A stretch of 64,000 bases of DNA from Fuerstiella marisgermanici. GTDB taxonomy: Bacteria; Planctomycetota; Planctomycetia; Planctomycetales; Planctomycetaceae. The stretch is taken from positions 2,046,001-2,110,000 of the forward strand of contig NZ_CP017641.1 of NCBI RefSeq assembly GCF_001983935.1. The letters run 5' to 3'. Below are positions 7,783-18,941 of the stretch, in pieces. A program made the position numbers and the translations under genes. Under the pieces are notes generated by a model. The model saw nothing but the letters and a program-made list of their open reading frames with translations. It was not told the origin of the DNA and searched no databases. Position 1 is the stretch's first letter. Each line of letters opens with the position of its first letter.

Positions 7783-8499
7783 TTATGTGGCGCTGTTAAG
7801 GTATCGTGATATCTGGTTGCTGACTGAACTGTAATGGTCAGAACGGACACCATTGCCCGACGCCCAACCATTGCAACCTAGAATACATTGATCACGTGCC
7901 ACAGACAATTGGGGCCAATATTTAAACTGTGGGTCGAGATCGAAGAGTAACTTGAAAGCAAAGCCAGGAATTGACATACAGATCGGAATTGATGGTGGAG
8001 ACGATTGGACACAGACACGGATCAATTGGTCAACAATGAAGATCTGCTGTCTAGGCAAAAAACCCTCGAACGTTCGCATGACGCAAAATGCGACAATTCC
8101 ATTTTCGACCTGGAAGAAGGACGCTAGTTGCCGAATCAGTTCAACCTTGCGATGGCAGTCATCGCGAATTGCCTTGACAACAGTGGTGGCCGCGCCGGCT
8201 ACAGCGGTAGTGAATCCTTCGGTCAATTCGGTGTGTCGTGAGTGCCCCCATTTCGCGAGGACTTGAAAGGCGGCATCGGTGTGTTTGTCGGTGACTCTGC
8301 GAAAGTACTGAATGTGGGATGGTCGCTGCCACAGCCGGATCAATTCGTCGTCTGACGCCGTCTTAGCGGCGGCCAGAAAGTTTGACGAATTGACTGGAGG
8401 ATCAAGCAAGGTTCTGCCACATAACGACCTGCGTAACCCAGAGGTGGCGGGCGGCGTGAAAATTTGGAATCGGCCCGACCACAACTCGGGTTGACACAA
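7783..8499 (-). CDS. Uncharacterised protein (weak gene call)
   Basis: I do not recognise this 238-residue frame. Its central part (A-I-R-D-D-C-H-R-K-V-E-L-I-R-Q-L-A-S-F-F followed by F-E-G-F-L-P-R-Q-Q-I-F-I-V-D-Q) looks protein-like. The first ~18 residues lie inside the diverged repeat 8446-8855 and the start codon is a poorly supported GTG, so the true start may be further in. No ribosome binding site is evident. It sits between an ISAs1 insertion and the repeat, so it may be a truncated resident gene whose C-terminal end was cut at the intron/IS boundary. Confidence 0.3.
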   Translation of the reverse strand: MCQPELWSGRFQIFTPPATSGLRRSLCGRTLLDPPVNSSNFLAAAKTASDDELIRLWQRPSHIQYFRRVTDKHTDAAFQVLAKWGHSRHTELTEGFTTAVAGAATTVVKAIRDDCHRKVELIRQLASFFQVENGIVAFCVMRTFEGFLPRQQIFIVDQLIRVCVQSSPPSIPICMSIPGFAFKLLFDLDPQFKYWPQLSVARDQCILGCNGWASGNGVRSDHYSSVSNQISRYLNSAT

Positions 8500-8855
8500 T
8501 GGTTAATTGGTTGTGCAGAGCCGCAGTCATTGGCGACGCATGCACGCCCTTAAGTTTAGTGGGCCGCGACCTTAATGGAAGCCCCGAATTTCAACTGTCG
8601 GGAAGCGGGAGTTCCGGGAATCTGAAGAAACGCGAAGGCGAGGACCGTAGCAATTCATCCGTCACTCGCAGGCAGCGCCAACCGGCCACCGTAACCAAAT
8701 GAAACCGCAGCATTATTTCCGATGAATCATTGGCTCCAGATAAGCACACCAACTCCGGTTTCGCCAGCCACCCAAACTCCGCAGCCCATCAGCCGAGCAG
8801 CCACGTACAAACAACTGGGCGATGCTCCGACAGCACGGAATGCCCCCGACATCGT
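8446..8855. repeat. Diverged ~400-bp direct repeat, copy A
   Basis: The segment aligns colinearly with 9268-9671. Shared blocks include GGCCCGACCAC-ACTCGGGTTGA near the start, GCGAGGACCGTAGCAATTCA (8638-8657) and CCATCAGCCGAGCAGC toward the end. Identity is roughly 75-80% by eye with small indels. Neither copy has a conserved open frame, so this is a non-coding or degenerate repeat. Together the copies bracket the small membrane-protein gene at 8942-9193. Confidence 0.8.
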
Positions 8856-9193: not shown

Positions 9194-9267
9194 GGCGAAT
9201 CTCCTTTGCTAATGTCCACCTGTCCAACCAGCAAACAGCCCGACGAACGACCTGCTTAGTCCGCGTG

Positions 9268-9671
9268 CGGCGAGCGGCTCGAAAACTTGAAGACGGCCCG
9301 ACCACGACTCGGGTTGATGCAACGGCTAATTGGTTCTCCTGCGTTGCCGCCAGTGGCACCGCAGGGACGCCTTTAATTTTACATGGCGGCGGCCTGAATG
9401 GAAGCCCTAAGATTCGCCGCCCCGGAAGCTCCGGGAATTTCGAGAAACGTGAAGGCGAGGACCGTAGCAATTCATCCGTGACTTGCAGGCAGCGCCAACT
9501 GGCCTCCGTAGCCAAATAGAACCGCAGCAATATTTCCGATGACACATTCGCTCAGGACGAACATGCCCACTCCGTTTTCGTGAGCGACCAAAACTCCGCC
9601 AGCCATCAGCCGAGCAGCGACGCAGAAACAACAGAGATGCTCCGACAGCTCGGAACAAATGCCGACGTTTT
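9268..9671. repeat. Diverged ~400-bp direct repeat, copy B
   Basis: This is the partner of 8446-8855. It includes a hairpin at about 9340-9366 (CTGCGTTGCC pairing with GGCACCGCAG) that copy A has lost, and the same GCGAGGACCGTAGCAATTCA block (9454-9473). Its left edge aligns from GCGAGCGGCTCGAAAA and its right edge ends near CGGAACAAATGCCGAC. Confidence 0.8.
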
Positions 9672-9817: not shown

Positions 9818-10905
9818 CAGGGGGATTGCACGCTAAGTCATTTGCCGAACAGGACTTTCGCGAGGTATGTCTCATCCCAGGCAGCGTTGAGTCTTTTGTT
9901 TTTGATCCCCACCCTGGCTGTGGATTCGTTTTTCAGGAGACTCAACGCCGTGCGGCGAAGGATGCTGAAGTTCATGTCTGCGTGGCGTTTACGGATCCTC
10001 GATTGATCTTCCTGGAAAGTGACGTCCAGTTGCCAATGCAAATTGTTCTCGACACCCCAATGGCTCCGCACAGCTTCGGCGAAACGACGGCCGGAGACAT
10101 AACGGCTTAAAATGTAATAGCGGATGCCGATGCACATTTTGCCGTCGCGGAGAGTGTTGTTGATCGCGATCCCGATCGCCTTCAGGTTCTTCCAGCGATG
10201 TGCGTCCGGAAGATCCTCCGGCGCACGACAGATCAGATACTGTCGCAAATCTTCGCGGCCGCCGGTGTTTTCTTTCGTTTCAAATCGTCGCACCGGACAG
10301 CGTGCAAAGTCATCTTCCAAATGGTCGGCGAAGAACGCGACAAGACCTGCGTGTAGCGTGGGCTGATTGCCTTTCGCGGCAAGACAATAGTCCGCCTCTG
10401 CGTCGACAATCTTCGACGCGATTTCCGTTTGGCAACCCATGGCGTCAATCGTCACTAAAGCACCGGAAACCTCGATCAATTCCAGCAGTTTGGGAATCGC
10501 CGTAATCTCATTACTCTTCGCATCGACGACGACTTGCCCGAGACTGATATGATTGGCTGTGGCCCATGCACTGACCATGTGGATGGCCGACTTGCCACTG
10601 GCTTTGTCATAGCTGCGACGGAGTGTCTTACCATCGATCGCGATGATTTGTCCGTCACTGATTTTCTGCAGAGAAGTGATCCAATTCAGTAAGCACTTTT
10701 CAAATTCTGCAGGACGAATCAGAGCGAGGATGGCGTTGAAACGATCGTGCGACGGAATCCCTGCGGACAGATCGAGATACTTCGCAAACCAATCTCGTTT
10801 CGTTCTGCCAAACTTCGCAATCGCGACAAAATCATCCGCGCCACTGATCACAGCACAGACTGCAATGAACAGAATATTTTGAAGCGGATAGACAGGCTCA
10901 CCGCG
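9818..10905 (-). mobile_element. Truncated ISAs1-family element
   Basis: The 3' end of the element is recognisable: CAGGGGGATTGCACGC at 9818 starts 20 bases from the transposase stop codon and looks like an ISAs1 terminal repeat. No matching inverted copy occurs beyond the transposase 5' end, so the upstream end has been lost, with homology fading near 10890-10905. It is clearly a different lineage from the complete element at 6461-7751. Confidence 0.65.
9838..10851 (-). pseudogene. ISAs1-family transposase, 5'-truncated
   Basis: 337 residues from a GTG at 10851 carry the whole DDE core: A-I-D-G-K-T-L-R-R-S, V-T-I-D-A-M-G-C-Q, A-K-G-N-Q-P and H-W-G-V-E-N-N-L-H-W with F-Q-E-D-Q-S-R. The same frame continues upstream as P-R-R-G-E-P-V-Y-P-L-Q-N-I-L-F-I-A-V-C-A-V, which is the family's N-terminal helix, but then runs into unrelated sequence without any start codon. 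The natural start is therefore missing. A shortened protein from the GTG is possible but probably inactive. Confidence 0.7.
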
Positions 10906-12110: not shown

Positions 12111-12279
12111 ATAGCCGTCATCGCTCCGCGTGATGAGCCACCAGTTTGCGGCCGCGACAAATCGGGGCACGAGCATCGAAATATTCGAATGCCACGAAGC
12201 CGCCGTATAACCGGACCACCGTCGTTATAGAATCACTCTCCCATCTGCGCCGCTCATCACGCGGAGCGATGATGGCTAC
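12111..12279. repeat. Palindromic-ended mini-element, intergenic copy (169 bp)
   Basis: The element has 28-bp inverted arms: 12111-12138 (ATCGCTCCGCGTGATGAGC core) and 12252-12279 (GCTCATCACGCGGAGCGAT core), matching at 26 of 28 positions. The interior (about 113 bp) has no gene. It begins 11 bases beyond the stop codon of the giant gene that ends at 12291. The same arms bound a 180-bp insert inside that gene (17154-17333), but the interiors differ. It looks like a non-autonomous, MITE-like or palindromic repeat with no transposase of its own in the window. Confidence 0.85.
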
Positions 12280-12290
12280 TTTGAAATGCG

Positions 12291-15200
12291 TCACTCCGGC
12301 GGCAACAGTCGAATTGCCTTCAGATCGAGCAACGCCGCCGGTGGTTTTTCCGGAGCGGTCACGATGATTTGCCTGCGGCCGCCGCCCAGATCCAGCTTGC
12401 CGGCCGTCCATGTTCGATAATCGTCCCATGTGCCTGTGCCGGGGATTCGAGCGGTCAATAGCCGAGTGCCGGTCGACAGTTTCAATAACCCACCCGCCGT
12501 TCCGTTGTCGCAGGCGTAGTCGACTTCTACCGTCCAGTAGCCGCCGCGCGGTACGTCAATCGTCCAGACGGCATAATCGTCCGTCGACGCCCACCAGCCC
12601 AGATTTTGATGCTTACTTTCGAAGACAAGATTCGGGCCATGAATTTCTGCGGCGCTGGCCGGTAGAAGAATCGTGCCATCGTCGCTCGCCCTGACCAATC
12701 GCGGCTCATTTCCTGCGAAGCGTTTCCATGTGGTGCCTGCCGACTGTACAAAAGCAATCACGTCCGCCAATTGTTGAGGCGTCAGATCCTTTTCCAAACC
12801 TTCCGGCATCAGCGACTTGTTGCTGCACACCAGTTCGTCCAGTTCCGTTCGCGGTACGGATTGTTCTTTGCCGTCGCTACCCAGCAACGTGATGCTGTTT
12901 CCGGTTTCATTCAACAGCATACCGCTGAACGTTCGTCCTTCTGTCGTGACGGCGATGTAACTGAAGAATTTTGATTCGACTGCTTTGTTGGGATCCAGGA
13001 TTGCCGTGAGCATGGCGTCGGTCGAACGATCTTTCAGTGCGGTTAGGTCGGCTCCTACCTGCTTGCCGACTTCACCAATTTTATGACACGTCGCACAACG
13101 TTTCTCGAAGACGGCCTTACCTGCGTCCGCGTCTGATTTCAGACCGGCAATATTAGCCCTCAGACTTTCAACGAGTGTCGTTCGAGCAGAAGGCGTTGTT
13201 GTGCCGAACAGCTTTTGAGCGTGCTCGCGGATTGTGGCATCTTTATGAGCCAGCAGCCGTTGCCGATATGCGGCGTCCACATCTGAAACCGTTAGTTCTC
13301 CGGATTCAATCGCCTTCAGCAGTGTCATCGTGCGCTCGCTTCGGCTCAACATGGCTTCCACCGCTGTGCCTCGGACAGACGGCGTCAAACTTCGCCACCG
13401 GGGAGCCAATTCCTGCCACAGGTGATCTGAATTCACGGCCGCCAAAACTCGAATAGCGGCCTGCTGCACGTCCGGCGGTGTGTCGGGGGAAAACAGGCCA
13501 AGAAGTGTTTGTTGCGTGTCTTGATTCAGGTTTCCACTAACTTCCATGAAGTTCAACGCGGCCAATCGCGTTCGAATGTCTTCGTCCGGTGAAACTGACA
13601 ACTCGCTGGCGAACTGCCTCGCATTCTTCCACGCTACCAGCGTGGATTTCGATTGCGAAACCAGTTCCGTGAGCTTTGGGTTGCGGCGAATCTGTGTGGA
13701 AACGCCGACAGCAGATTCCCACATATCCGGCGACCGGTTCTGTTTGCCTTCTGTCATCCTTTTCAGCAAAGCTTCAAACGCAGTCACGACCGCCGGGCCT
13801 TTTTCGAAAGCTGCCGCCATGCGCAGCACGTCACCATAGATAAGGGCAGAGACGGGCTCGTCCGATTTGCTGAGTGAAATCAGCAGTCCAACGACGTTTT
13901 CATCATTGGTCGACGAATACACGGCGTCCCTGATATGAGTGTTACTACCGTGCCGGGTTAGTAGTGACGCCAGTGTCGCTTTGGAAGCGTCTGCAAACCG
14001 ATCGGAAGCTCCCATCACGAGGGCGAGTTGCTGTTGAACGATTGGAGATGGGTCGTACAGCATTGCAAGTAGCACATTAGACAACTTTTCGTCTTCGTCA
14101 CGGAGTCGTGATTCGAACCGAAGCACCTGCCGTCGCACTTCCGGATGGGGATCGTCTCGCAGACCAACAAGCGTTTCTGCCAGTTGGATACTTTGCGTGT
14201 GCGTTCGCTCTACATTCGCCATCGCGGCGATCGCCTGAACGCGAACGGCAGCAGATTCGTGCGTTGCCATCAGAGTCAACAGCTCCTTCGGTGGAAAGTC
14301 GCCGCCACGATGAGCCAGCAACCGTTGAGCCGTATCGCGCCACCAGCCGTTGAGGCTGGCGATGCGTTCTGCCAGTTCTTTGGTGGTGATCTCGGACGCG
14401 GGTTTGTTAAACCAGTCCCGCAGCTCCGGAACAGCCGTGGCTACTTTGTCGCTCGATGTCGCTGAGTCGTGCAATTGATTCTCATTCACAGCTTCGGCTT
14501 CAAACCCGCAACAGGAAGCGGCTTCGTGATCCGAAGCAAACGCACGAGTCACAGCAACCTCTCGACTCGGAGAGTTCGAGCTACGAGCCCGCACGTTCGA
14601 CGTCCTCGGCGATTTGACAACATCGCGCGACATCCCGTGTGGCCACGCCACCGCCTGCCGGGGCTGCCCCGCTGTGACCCTGTAAATCCTGCCACGGTCG
14701 TCGCCCGCTCGCAAATTCATTTTTCGCTGGTACTCATCGGGAATCCACTGAGGATGCTCAATCACCTGACGGTACATGTCGGCGATGTAGATCGCTCCGT
14801 CCGGGCCGGTGCGGACCATGACTGGCCGAGTCCAGTTGTCACTGCTGGCGAAGAATTCTGATTTCTGCTCGTCTCTCGCTCGACGACCTTTGAAGGTCAC
14901 TCCGTCGCGTTCCAGCACCAGTCGGCTTACAAGATTATGCACCGGTTCGCAGGTGAACGCGTTGCCGTAAAATTCTTCGCCCAACAGGTGATCGCGGTAG
15001 ATGGATGTGCTGCAGGCCGACGTAAACCGGTTGGCCGCATGAAAGTCGTTAAAGCGAGCCATCGTTTTGCTGGTTGGGAACACGGGAGCGGCTCCGGGGA
15101 CCTCGGCAACCTGAGCCCTTGTTTGAAGTCCGGTGGCGTGTGGGTTTCGGCTCAGGTAGCGGTCTTCCAAAACGTAATGCCAAATCGGATTGCTGTTATT

Positions 15201-18200
15201 GTTGCCGAACCAGTTGCCGAAGTCGTCGCGGTTGCGGCCGAACTGAGTCTGCCCGCTGAGTAATTCAATGGCTCCGGTATCCGGATGAATCCGCAGGTCA
15301 CGCCCTCGAATATTGACCGGATCTCTTGAGACTACCGACTTTTCACTCACAGTGGCAACGGCTTTAATTTCGCCACCGCTATCCCCATTGGCCAGGTACA
15401 ACCATCCATCAAGCCCCCAGCGCATTCCGTTCACTCGATGCTGCTGGTTGCCTTCAGTGAATCCGGTGAACAGAACTTTGCGAACGTCGGCGACGAAGTC
15501 TCCGTCGGTGTCTTCTGCGTAGATGATGTCCGGCGCCGCCGTGATGATCCAGCCGTTGCGCCACGGATGAATGCCGGTAGGGAAGTTCAGGTCATCCAGA
15601 AACGTAACAGCTTCATCGTAGCGCCCATCGTTATCGGCGTCAGTCAGAACCCGAACGCGTCCATTCACGCCCCCGGACGCCCGCACATCCAACTTCCTCG
15701 GCGATTCGGCTCCCTCCCGCGCCGTCCCGTGTTGCCCCGCCACCGCCCGCCGGGGCTGCCCGGCACCACTGGGGTAGCCGCCCATTTCGATGACCCACAT
15801 TCGTCCCTGGAAGTCCCAGTCGAAGGCGACGGGGTCATGTATCAGCGGTTCTGCCACTACCAGTTCGGCCTTCATGCCGGGCCGGACGGTGATGCAGCTG
15901 AGCGAATCTTCCGGCGACTTTGGCCCGGGGAAAGTTGCCTGCAGTTCATCGGAATAGAATTCGTGTGGAAGCAGCTTCTGTACGGCATCGCAAATGAGAT
16001 CCTCGGCTTCCGGTGCCAGTCGCGTTGGGTGAGCGTAGTACACCATTGACCGGTCTGCCTCATAACCGCCTTCTCGCAAGATCCGTTTGCTGGCGATGTA
16101 GCAGGGGACGTCGTTGGTATATGCGTTCAGCCACAGACGTTGGTCGTCGAACATGCTGTTGAGCCGAATGGAATAATCGACCACCACTTCGCCGCCCAGA
16201 AACACCATTGCCAGATCCTCGCCGAAGCACCAGGTTTGCACGGGATAGTTCGGTACCGTGGTGGGAATGTCTTCGCCGTTGTCGAGCATCTTCAGGAACT
16301 TCTTCGCGAGGTGTCCTGTGTGACTGTCGTCCTTCGCCTGAGCTTCCCAGGCCGCTCGATCAGGCAACGGACCGAGCGGCAGGTTAATGCGGGCGATGTC
16401 GCAAGTGATGCTGGGATCGATGGGGGTGAGGAACGCCGAGTCGTCGACATCCGCATTCGGCTTTCCATCTTCCGCTTTACCCAACAATCGTTTCACTTCA
16501 TCTGCAACGGCACGCCCATGTTGTTTTGCCTGTTCGTGAGTCCCTCTGGGAGACGGGTTTGCGTCGGCTCCGCAGCCAATGGCGATCAAGGCGACGGATC
16601 CGGGGTTGTCGGCTTCGATCATGTCGGCCGCAAAGCCGGGCCAGTCGCCGCTGATTTGATTGAACGCACCGGTTTCTGTTGTCGCATGGCACGCGTAATT
16701 TGCGAGCACCGCAATCAATTTGCCGTTCGCATCATGAGCAGCCAGCACCGGGAACTGATGATCCACAGGGCCATCGGGAGTTTCTCCGAACCCCTGCCAT
16801 GTGCCGTTATTCAGGACTCGGCGATTGATGGCGAAGCCGAGTTTTCCTCGACCAACGGAAAGGTTGCCGGGCTTGCGTGCTTCAATCGCCTTGTCGACGA
16901 CTGAGACGAGATGTTCGACTAACTCGGCTTCATACTTTGCAAGGTGAGCCGCGTGGTCTTCCGGCAGGTTGGGCAGAATATTCGGCGCAAAGTCACGCAG
17001 CCACGGGCCGGAATGCGTGTGGGTGGATGAGACTGCAAATCGTTCGCGTGAGATATTGTGTTTAGCAGCGATCTTGCCGAAAGCCGCTTCAACAATCTCT
17101 TGTGGCACACCGCAGTTATCGACGGTGATGAGGATCGCCAGCGGCTGTTCGTAGTAGCCATCATCGCTCCGCGTGATGAGCCCCGCAGCACGGTCTTTCT
17201 GATTAAAACGAGCCATCGTTTGGATGTCAGTGTGCTGAAAACTGCGGCTTCCGACGCCGGAGATCCGGACGTCGCTGCCGCTGGTTCGCGATCGGCCACT
17301 GCGCGGCTCGTCACGCGGAGCGATGACGGCTACATTCTTCCCGCCGATCACCAGCGCCCGAGCATGAATCTTCGCGGCCACGCCTTCGGATTCCGTCGCT
17401 CGATTCCCGTAGCCGGTGAGACGGACGGGGTAGTCCGGCGTGATGTCGACAACGGCGGCACCGATGGGTGTAGGCCAGAACGAGCGAACCGAGTCGTTGC
17501 CGGAACGGCGGTCGCCAGCTTCCGACTCTCGAAGCTCTTTCGGGGTGTCAGGGCTTTCGTCGGTTCGCGCTGTTCCGGCGGGAGCGGCGACCTTGTTCCG
17601 GCCTACGTTCGCGGCCGGAATGTCGTCAAACGAAACACGATGAATCAAGTCCGGCAGGTGAGCCGTGTCTTCGTTCTGCCAGCAGAGGTGGCGGTTGTGG
17701 ATGAAGAAACCGTTGTCCGAACCATCGTCCCGCTTCAATGGCAGCAACATCGGGGAAGTACCGTGGGCCAGCACGTCGCGAACATTCTTAGGTAATGAAC
17801 GCACGTCTGATGGGTTGGAATGTTGTTTAAGGTGTGCCGCGTGACTGGCGGAGTCTCGCAAGTCCGACTTCGCCTGCCGCAGCGACTTTCCATTGGTCAG
17901 ACTTTGGTTCAGCCTCTCCGCGGCCTCCCGGAACGTTAGAAACTTCAACTTCTTTCCATGCTTTTGCACCGCGTGGTCGATCAGTTCAACAACCTGTTCC
18001 GCCGTGATCCAGCCGTGCGGGTGGAAGACCAGATTGAAGACTCCCTGTTTGTGCACGGTGATGTCCAGAGCCGCCTTCCAGTCTTCGACGGTGAGTGGAT
18101 TGTTGACGCCGTGCAGGTGTTGAGCGGACCAATCGCTGGGTGCCACACAGGGGAATTGCCAGCAGGTGTTATTAATGACGTACGGGTACGGGTAGTTTTT

Positions 18201-18941
18201 GATGTAGTTCACGAAGTTGGTGTGAACGACCTCACCGCGTTTCAGGTGGCGGACCTTGTACTTCCAGAAGCGTTCGTTGCCATCTTTGTCCAGCACAAGT
18301 TCACGCGGAATCGATTCGTCGTCCGATGTGAAGAAATTCATCACGGACGAATCGATCTGCAGGTAGTGTCCTTCCGACGTTGTGCGCGGAAAGATCTCAG
18401 AATAGAACCGTGGACTGACCGTGTTCAGCGAATCGCAACACGGCGTGCGGAAGGCGACGGGCTTGTTGCCCGGAATCTTGTTCAGTAGATCGATGCAGCG
18501 GTCGTATGTAGACTTGGCTTTGTCGATGTCTCCTCCCTGCAGCAGCGGGCAGGGGTGGTCGACCGTGTGGCATTCAATGCTGAGCCCTTCTTCCAGCCAA
18601 CTTTGCAATTGAGGATCATCGGGCTTCACGTCGCACGTCATGATGCTTACGGGAGCCCGACCGTCGATCTGCTTCAGACGATTCAGGATTGGCCGCAGGT
18701 ACTGTTCGTACTTAGCGGTGTCTCGCATGTCGTCGATGGCGAGAACGACAACACAGTCTACGCCTTCTTCACCCACCCATTGCGGCGTGATCAGTTTTGG
18801 AAAGTCCTTGTGCGGCTGCCAAGGATTGCATTCGTCCAGGTAGGCGAGATCGTTGGCATCGTCGGCAAGTACCACACTGATTTCGGGTACGGAGTGGCTA
18901 AGGACGAATACAAGGAGGGGAAGGACGGTCCAACGAATCAT
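12291..18941 (-). CDS. Giant secreted deacetylase / ceramidase-like / PVC-type dehydrogenase-cytochrome fusion
   Basis: The protein has 2216 residues and a signal peptide (1-26). In order it contains: a polysaccharide deacetylase-like region (about 40-380); a neutral ceramidase-like domain (about 494-1000; V-S-S-T-H-T-H-S-G-P near 642, but G-C-G-A-D-A-N-P where true ceramidases have the G-D-V-S-P nucleophile, so activity is uncertain); a PVC-type membrane-bound dehydrogenase beta-propeller (about 1010-1480); HEAT-like repeats; a haem site C-A-T-C-H (about 1949); and a C-terminal carbohydrate-binding-like sandwich. It presumably acts outside the cytoplasm on glycan or lipid substrates. The frame is interrupted by in-frame repeat inserts at residues ~537-596, ~1057-1090 and ~1417-1452. 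Function is inferred from domains only. Confidence 0.85.
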   Translation of the reverse strand: MIRWTVLPLLVFVLSHSVPEISVVLADDANDLAYLDECNPWQPHKDFPKLITPQWVGEEGVDCVVVLAIDDMRDTAKYEQYLRPILNRLKQIDGRAPVSIMTCDVKPDDPQLQSWLEEGLSIECHTVDHPCPLLQGGDIDKAKSTYDRCIDLLNKIPGNKPVAFRTPCCDSLNTVSPRFYSEIFPRTTSEGHYLQIDSSVMNFFTSDDESIPRELVLDKDGNERFWKYKVRHLKRGEVVHTNFVNYIKNYPYPYVINNTCWQFPCVAPSDWSAQHLHGVNNPLTVEDWKAALDITVHKQGVFNLVFHPHGWITAEQVVELIDHAVQKHGKKLKFLTFREAAERLNQSLTNGKSLRQAKSDLRDSASHAAHLKQHSNPSDVRSLPKNVRDVLAHGTSPMLLPLKRDDGSDNGFFIHNRHLCWQNEDTAHLPDLIHRVSFDDIPAANVGRNKVAAPAGTARTDESPDTPKELRESEAGDRRSGNDSVRSFWPTPIGAAVVDITPDYPVRLTGYGNRATESEGVAAKIHARALVIGGKNVAVIAPRDEPRSGRSRTSGSDVRISGVGSRSFQHTDIQTMARFNQKDRAAGLITRSDDGYYEQPLAILITVDNCGVPQEIVEAAFGKIAAKHNISRERFAVSSTHTHSGPWLRDFAPNILPNLPEDHAAHLAKYEAELVEHLVSVVDKAIEARKPGNLSVGRGKLGFAINRRVLNNGTWQGFGETPDGPVDHQFPVLAAHDANGKLIAVLANYACHATTETGAFNQISGDWPGFAADMIEADNPGSVALIAIGCGADANPSPRGTHEQAKQHGRAVADEVKRLLGKAEDGKPNADVDDSAFLTPIDPSITCDIARINLPLGPLPDRAAWEAQAKDDSHTGHLAKKFLKMLDNGEDIPTTVPNYPVQTWCFGEDLAMVFLGGEVVVDYSIRLNSMFDDQRLWLNAYTNDVPCYIASKRILREGGYEADRSMVYYAHPTRLAPEAEDLICDAVQKLLPHEFYSDELQATFPGPKSPEDSLSCITVRPGMKAELVVAEPLIHDPVAFDWDFQGRMWVIEMGGYPSGAGQPRRAVAGQHGTAREGAESPRKLDVRASGGVNGRVRVLTDADNDGRYDEAVTFLDDLNFPTGIHPWRNGWIITAAPDIIYAEDTDGDFVADVRKVLFTGFTEGNQQHRVNGMRWGLDGWLYLANGDSGGEIKAVATVSEKSVVSRDPVNIRGRDLRIHPDTGAIELLSGQTQFGRNRDDFGNWFGNNNSNPIWHYVLEDRYLSRNPHATGLQTRAQVAEVPGAAPVFPTSKTMARFNDFHAANRFTSACSTSIYRDHLLGEEFYGNAFTCEPVHNLVSRLVLERDGVTFKGRRARDEQKSEFFASSDNWTRPVMVRTGPDGAIYIADMYRQVIEHPQWIPDEYQRKMNLRAGDDRGRIYRVTAGQPRQAVAWPHGMSRDVVKSPRTSNVRARSSNSPSREVAVTRAFASDHEAASCCGFEAEAVNENQLHDSATSSDKVATAVPELRDWFNKPASEITTKELAERIASLNGWWRDTAQRLLAHRGGDFPPKELLTLMATHESAAVRVQAIAAMANVERTHTQSIQLAETLVGLRDDPHPEVRRQVLRFESRLRDEDEKLSNVLLAMLYDPSPIVQQQLALVMGASDRFADASKATLASLLTRHGSNTHIRDAVYSSTNDENVVGLLISLSKSDEPVSALIYGDVLRMAAAFEKGPAVVTAFEALLKRMTEGKQNRSPDMWESAVGVSTQIRRNPKLTELVSQSKSTLVAWKNARQFASELSVSPDEDIRTRLAALNFMEVSGNLNQDTQQTLLGLFSPDTPPDVQQAAIRVLAAVNSDHLWQELAPRWRSLTPSVRGTAVEAMLSRSERTMTLLKAIESGELTVSDVDAAYRQRLLAHKDATIREHAQKLFGTTTPSARTTLVESLRANIAGLKSDADAGKAVFEKRCATCHKIGEVGKQVGADLTALKDRSTDAMLTAILDPNKAVESKFFSYIAVTTEGRTFSGMLLNETGNSITLLGSDGKEQSVPRTELDELVCSNKSLMPEGLEKDLTPQQLADVIAFVQSAGTTWKRFAGNEPRLVRASDDGTILLPASAAEIHGPNLVFESKHQNLGWWASTDDYAVWTIDVPRGGYWTVEVDYACDNGTAGGLLKLSTGTRLLTARIPGTGTWDDYRTWTAGKLDLGGGRRQIIVTAPEKPPAALLDLKAIRLLPPE
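14586..14690. repeat. GC-rich intragenic repeat, copy 1
   Basis: This block within the giant gene matches 15672-15770. Shared stretches on the plus strand are TCCTCGGCGATT, a block around ATCCCGTGT and CGCCACCGCC, then GCCGGGGCTGCCC. In the protein it reads G-Q-P-R-Q-A-V-A-W-P-H-G...K-S-P-R-T-S-N-V-R-A and interrupts the dehydrogenase domain right after Y-R-V-T-A, near its C-terminal edge. The residues that follow (to about 14470) are also low-complexity and may belong to a longer insert. Confidence 0.75.
15672..15770. repeat. GC-rich intragenic repeat, copy 2
   Basis: This is the second copy of the block at 14586-14690, translated as G-Q-P-R-R-A-V-A-G-Q-H-G...E-S-P-R-K-L-D-V-R-A. It splits the dehydrogenase propeller between E-M-G-G-Y-P and G-R-V-R-V-L, a junction that is continuous in related proteins. 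Both copies keep the same orientation and reading frame. Confidence 0.75.
17154..17333. repeat. Palindromic-ended mini-element inserted in frame (180 bp)
   Basis: 28-bp inverted arms at 17154-17181 and 17306-17333 match each other and the arms of 12111-12279 with only two or three differences. Length is 180 bp, exactly 60 codons, and the whole element is open in the host frame. It translates to A-V-I-A-P-R-D-E-P-R-S ... L-I-T-R-S-D-D-G-Y, lying between A-L-V-I-G-G-K-N and Q-P-L-A-I-L-I-T-V-D-N of the ceramidase-like domain, a junction expected to be continuous. The in-frame persistence resembles Rickettsia palindromic elements, but the sequence is unrelated to any I know. Confidence 0.85.

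Follow-up and report, generated by a model that had tools for sequence, protein, structure and literature searches.

An in-frame insert in a ceramidase-domain gene of Fuerstiella marisgermanici is very probably a REPIN made of two facing GTAG-tagged hairpins

The 60-codon insert present in a 2216-residue protein of Fuerstiella marisgermanici is very probably a REPIN, consisting of two facing REP hairpins that each carry a GTAG tag, and belonging to the non-autonomous elements of the kind thought to be moved by a RAYT transposase. The DNA under study, hereafter the window, was the whole stretch of 64,000 nucleotides corresponding to positions 2,046,001 to 2,110,000 of contig NZ_CP017641.1. An earlier note on this DNA had suggested that a mobile palindromic element is tolerated here within a coding sequence. 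This proposal was right in kind: orthologues lack the insert, and the element is present in multiple copies. The following features of the window are referred to below.

12291..18941, minus strand: host gene, an open reading frame of 2216 amino acids in which Pfam detects polysaccharide deacetylase-like, Ceramidase_alk, DUF7133, HEAT and cytochrome c domains
17154..17333, minus strand: REPIN, an in-frame 60-codon insert (180 bp) in the host gene, delimited by its arms and reading frame and missing from homologues
17154..17186, plus strand: REP arm with the GTAG tag at 17154 and the hairpin inward, from repeat comparison and fold
17301..17333, minus strand: REP arm facing the first arm, from repeat comparison and fold
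17264..17269, no strand assigned: TCCGGA motif in the spacer of the in-gene REPIN, about 63 nt inward of an outer end
12111..12279, no strand assigned: second REPIN, of 169 bp, located between genes and 11 nt beyond the host stop codon, with ATAG rather than GTAG as its left tag

As claimed in the earlier note, the 180-bp insert is bounded by inverted arms (17154-17188 and 17299-17333; 35 nt, 91% complementary) and is free of stop codons on the host strand, where it encodes residues 537-596 (VAVIAPRDEP...RSDDGY). The second copy does lie just past the host stop codon, and its inverted arms, at 12112-12138 and 12252-12278, are 96% complementary over 27 nt. The 19-nt core of the arm was matched four times in the window, for 0.03 matches expected from shuffles. 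The insert had also been described as a basic loop, which holds only mildly (10 K/R versus 7 D/E, counted by hand on the translation).

The insert is located in the ceramidase domain, between GGKN and EQPLAILITVDN, and the Pfam Ceramidase_alk match starts right after it (residues 601-780, from profile position 51). The solved structures nearest to this domain by sequence are those of the neutral ceramidases 2zws and 4wgk. Homologues display an empty site at this position (GGEP-ERPLSIL, GGNT-EQPLAIL and similar sequences), corresponding to a short turn or to small loops, including short loops of their own in three homologues (L323, L324 and L325). Twenty-nine homologues were aligned with the host domain, and the insert was present in none of the 25 that were readable at the site, the four rows left out (L326, L333, L340 and L343) being misaligned there. 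Included in the 25 are the six closely matching relatives from the same genus (G001, G002, G004, G005, G006 and G007). A BLASTP check returned both flanks with the insert missing for 20 of the 29 homologues (one of them, L335, through a wrong second piece) and left the remaining nine unclassed under its rule. The presence of the same 60 residues in orthologues had been set beforehand as a possible refutation of a mobile element; homologues without these residues were found and the claim stands.

The comparison with homologues also bears on the possibility that the element is the same REPIN but that its host is a silent or decaying gene, which would make the open frame irrelevant to any protein. 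In favor of this explanation, the gene contains other lineage-specific in-frame inserts. However, all 2216 codons are open, and the product is 60-65% identical to those of five same-genus relatives over 2023-2049 aligned positions. In addition, the invariant residues of a 14-sequence alignment, including H154 and H156 of THTHSG, are kept in the window copy. A silent or decaying host gene is thus unlikely.

Additional repeats were observed in the host gene and elsewhere in the window. Two sequences in frame in the host gene, 14587-14672 and 15679-15764, are 81% identical over 86 nt, and their arm, GCCGGGCAGCCCCGGCGGGCGGTGGC, occurs at five further places in the genome. This repeat looks like another palindromic repeat family, devoid of the GTAG tag. 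The host gene also contains a 34-residue in-frame insert, PAGTARTDESPDTPKELRESEAGDRRSGNDSVRS (17481-17582), which is missing from at least four of the five same-genus relatives and whose DNA weakly matches one other place in the genome (79% over some 50 nt). The neighboring stretches 8423-8815 and 9246-9632 are repeats of one another, spaced 817-823 nt apart and 72-83% identical; they are followed by a transposase-like open reading frame (9838-10851).

In order to define the family to which the in-gene element belongs, the 8,920,478-base contig (8.92 Mb) was searched for the 19-nt core with at most two mismatches. Twenty matches were obtained, and none with the reversed pattern. Two of these matches (L019 and L020) were not REPs once the whole arm was read. 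The remaining 18 arms are distributed among 12 loci: six clean doublets, two doublets in which the second arm has decayed (L006, 189 bp, and L016, 179 bp), and four loci with no detectable second arm (L001, L009, L010 and L015). The doublets of this genome span 168-189 bp. Two facing REPs therefore form a unit present in multiple copies, the copy number being low here. Confinement of the arms to the two places of the window had been named beforehand as a possible refutation; they occur instead at these 12 loci and in other genomes.

An exact TCCGGA motif was present in six of the eight two-armed copies of the genome, some 63-66 nt inward of an outer end, as compared to a mean of 0.23 and a maximum of 4 of the eight in 2000 mononucleotide shuffles. 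In other genomes, the spacers of doublets of this REP differ from the own-genome spacer. The earlier view that the interiors of the element are free is thus true only in part. The one-armed copy at L001 (around 1494; G000:C1:1480023) shares the start of its spacer and its outer flank with the 12111 element, a sequence similarity which suggests that the two derive from a duplicated locus. Beyond about 30 nt of spacer, the sequence of L001 differs and resembles, by eye, part of a transposase gene.

An individual arm is a REP hairpin that bears a GTAG tag, GTAGCCRTCATCGCTCCGCGTGAYGAGC, and two facing arms constitute the REPIN. Folding of the arm as DNA revealed that its inner part, CGTCA-T-CGC-TCC-GCG-TGACG, forms a bulged hairpin after the tag, i.e. 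the GTAG (GTRG) tag is located 5' of an imperfect hairpin. The stability of the single-arm folds was not striking in comparison to shuffles (z of -1.3 and -1.5). Among 278 arms, the first three positions of the tag were occupied by G in 266, T in 271, and A in 264. An A-rich run, CAAA or CAAC, precedes the tag in most of 232 flanks and is weaker in the in-gene copy.

Variation between the arms was used to assess the pairing, with the limitation that the arms, taken from all collected loci, are related by descent and that the counts are not independent. The R-Y pair of the stem was A-T in 163 of the 278 distinct arms, G-C in 103, G-T in 5, and another combination in 7. In 35 of 111 distinct doublets, the two arms differed at this pair (A-T versus G-C), and the arms were identical in just 24. 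Sister forms of the REP differ on both sides of the tip (CGC/GCG, CTT/AAG, CTC/GAG, CTG/CAG) but share the outer stem and TCC loop, the tip being paired in 223 of 237 matches to a loose pattern. Compensating changes that preserve the hairpin therefore occur within a single arm, both at the R-Y pair and at the tip. Because the arms of a doublet can differ at the R-Y pair and yet each remain paired, the pairing is, judging from these related sequences, preserved within each arm and not between arms, as in a REP.

These observations can be set against the behavior of a MITE mobilized by a classical DDE transposase, an element with terminal inverted repeats moved by a cut-and-paste enzyme. The long terminal inverted repeats, the length of the doublets and the dispersion of the copies would fit such an element. 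In contrast, the pairing is kept within the arms rather than between them, and these arms border genes for Y1/HUH transposases (below). Target-site duplications were not found either: direct duplications of at least 4 nt were present at the ends of none of the eight two-armed copies, and a duplication of 3 nt at the ends of one of the eight. A DDE-dependent MITE is accordingly very improbable.

The REP was detected within three mismatches in four of 58 genomes, comprising the genome of the window and its relatives (G000, its congener G005, G021 and G033). None of the 58 contained the reversed pattern. A wider scan of named genomes revealed at least 118 stretches containing the REP. The sources among the matches listed include MAGs titled Schlesneria, Planctomyces, other Planctomycetes, Candidatus Kuenenia and Verrucomicrobia, these names being the titles given by the depositors. 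At one locus (L159; G021:C221:6169-6370), six REP-like units form a direct tandem array with a period of 35 nt.

The earlier note had called for a search for a transposase with matching ends. In G033, whose contigs belong to a record titled Planctomycetaceae bacterium AM_0621, the gene for a 220-residue protein, P0001, is located between two doublets of the window's REP family. P0001 scored 26.6 bits against Pfam Y1_Tnp, above the cut-off of 23, and 53.5 bits against the NCBIfam model for REP-associated tyrosine transposases, below the cut-off of 80. A search with P0001 gave a match at E ≤1e-10 in 20 of 23 genomes. The window's REP, with at most four substitutions, adjoins the RAYT gene in five of 30 loci homologous to P0001, all in other genomes. 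It is found on both sides of the gene at L289, L290, L291 and L298 and on one side at L309, where the RAYT gene contains an internal stop codon. All four RAYTs that are at least 68% identical to P0001 among the matches listed (G033, G070:C27, G060:C272 and G071:C435) are flanked by the REP. The five loci belong to other Planctomycetota and to one Verrucomicrobia MAG, L298 originating from a MAG titled Prosthecobacter debontii.

The flanks of the other 25 RAYT loci were scanned for hairpins. At least two different GTAG or GTGG hairpins, such as GTAGCCCTGTCGCTCCGCGACAGG and GTAGCCTTCTCGCTCCGCGAGAAG, were present at 15 loci, and none were found at 10, in a scan that is blind to bulged hairpins and whose counts are not backed by a shuffle control. 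Linkage was also sought among PF01797 matches. None was found in the window's genome, and the search was negative in the 23 REP-bearing genomes (of which G066 duplicates G033) except for two loci, which were set aside: L238 has REPs immediately beyond the stop codon of a RAYT-like gene whose HUH motif is altered, and L197 contains a REP with four substitutions near an IS200-like gene. The occurrence of PF01797 in all 23 REP-bearing genomes is weak evidence because this family is common.

No RAYT gene was found beside the window's REP in the genome of the window, which thus appears to lack a cognate RAYT. The nearest homologue of P0001 in this genome (6879831-6880465) is split over two frames and is flanked by a sister REP, GTAGCCATCACTTTCCAAGTGATG. 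The next homologue (5089368-5089970; 45% identity) has an open frame and is associated with GTGG hairpins of another type. The missing RAYT bears on the activity of the element rather than on its membership of the family, because orphan REPs are known for strains lacking RAYTs, according to passages of Di Nocera (2013; PMC3733652). The frame-broken RAYT (L300 1315-2298; G000:C1 near 6.88 Mb) adjoins purL. Several further Y1 transposase genes of the genome (L023-L029) have flanking repeats of their own, for example TCGTTTAACCCGCAGCCGAAGGCGCAGGCG on both sides at L029. From their sequences, several REP/RAYT-like systems seem to coexist in this genome.

Three of the 12 loci of the window's genome are in frame in conserved genes, encoding the ceramidase fusion, a sulfatase and a helicase. 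The sulfatase copy is located at the SGSH_C domain of a sulfatase-DUF7133 protein. Eight of 19 relatives have a match to this protein; six of them match both sides without the insert (G001, G002, G007, G010, G011 and G038) and two align with the upstream part only. The helicase copy lies between the winged-helix and MrfA zinc-binding matches. All seven relatives of the genus match both sides, and the match coordinates show that over the query they are shorter by about 23 to 66 codons; the linker is variable among them, and G001 offers no clean empty site. A doublet of a sister type is also in frame in purL of the same genome (TIGR01736 above cut-off; L400 around 1470-1524).

In other genomes, the at least 118 loci contain 130 elements, of which 112 among the matches listed are located between genes, while 12 span a gene end and 6 fall within genes, as determined with a crude codon-score gene caller and for loci that share contigs. 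The element is thus mainly extragenic. Three of the six calls inside genes are distrusted: L095 and L102 look spurious, and L138 is probably ahead of the true start. The other three are located in the MetH activation domain (L113; TIGR02082 above cut-off), between a protein kinase match and an LRR region (L105), and just after the signal peptide of an outer-membrane efflux-type lipoprotein, named by eye only (L140). Comparing 3 of 12 loci in the window's genome with 6 called (3 trusted) of 130 elements elsewhere would be unfair, the mismatch limits having differed between the two sets.

The location of these copies is relevant to a further alternative, according to which the insert is an RPE-like element unrelated to RAYTs and selected for translatability. 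The element is palindromic and in frame in several proteins, as RPEs are in the description given in part of PMC3733652. The linkage to RAYTs in other genomes and the intergenic location of most elements of these genomes argue against this explanation, to which we give hardly any credence.

An intact REP on the coding strand is open in the phase that reads VAVIAPRDEP and contains TAG or TGA in the other phases. Loss of the bulged T or changes in the tip open a second phase (SHHSPSDE, SHHAPRDA), as in L016, L113 and purL. Sharing of a phase by several copies is no evidence of selection for coding, because frame-breaking copies would be lost. An in-frame bias of the copies cannot be claimed. A broader and speculative proposal, which we consider rather doubtful, is that new protein segments repeatedly arise from REPINs in some planctomycetes. 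Copies in an open phase would survive in loops and linkers of core enzymes, where they would be retained and reshaped, as might be the case for the ceramidase fusion, the sulfatase, the helicase and PurL, and for MetH elsewhere. If so, a selfish DNA element would regularly supply protein linkers.

RAYTs are described as recognizing GTAG-tagged hairpins in single-stranded DNA. For the REPIN of the window, we propose that a RAYT, i.e. an HUH/Y1 tyrosine transposase, recognized the element and moved it as single-stranded DNA. A copy would have inserted into the host gene in the phase GTA GCC GTC ..., which is stop-free for an intact REP. The host frame would have remained open because this phase lacks stop codons and 180 bp is a multiple of three. 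The extra residues would plausibly be tolerated at the ceramidase site because a short turn or small loops occupy this position in homologues. The active RAYT may have been lost from the genome after the insertion.

Two expectations of the earlier note were not borne out, namely that Rickettsia palindromic elements are the closest known parallel and that no similar planctomycete family has been described. REPINs were defined by Bertels and Rainey (2011; PMC3116915, as excerpted), and passages of Di Nocera (2013; PMC3733652) report GTAG REPs in Planctomycetes and Verrucomicrobia, including R. baltica and O. terrae, the latter being the richest in GTAG REPs. The same passages describe head-to-head dimers, RAYT genes flanked by GTAG REPs, and REPs inside open reading frames, also in the PVC group, and mention 24 published GTAG families. 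In the part available, PMC6006769 classifies these transposases and assigns one class mainly to Planctomycetes. A text search of the literature with part of the REP sequence found no paper, which proves little. The element falls within the GTAG kind at large and may coincide with one of the 24 families of the cited passages of PMC3733652.

These cases leave the held view of REPINs unchanged. They link a planctomycete repeat that had been anonymous to the family of its transposase across the PVC group, and they provide homologue-checked examples of conserved enzyme genes that contain a "repetitive extragenic palindrome". RAYTs with matched and diverged REP hairpins are material for testing recognition rules.

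With RPEs, as described in the passages of PMC3733652, the element shares palindromic inserts kept in frame in proteins; it differs from them, in a comparison made by description only, in that a RAYT flanked by the element is present in relatives. The likeness to the GTAG REP/REPIN systems with RAYTs of these passages extends to the GTAG tag, the imperfect hairpin, the head-to-head doublets, the REP-flanked RAYT, the mostly intergenic location with some copies in open reading frames, and the Planctomycetes and Verrucomicrobia as hosts. The differences are the longer doublets (168-189 bp, whereas most dimer spacers of the cited passages are 20-100 bp), the fixed spacer motif and the size of the in-frame inserts, which exceeds the usual 20-30 residues. 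The element is a new planctomycete REPIN of the already known GTAG kind; its assignment to a transposase is clear, and several of its copies are in frame.
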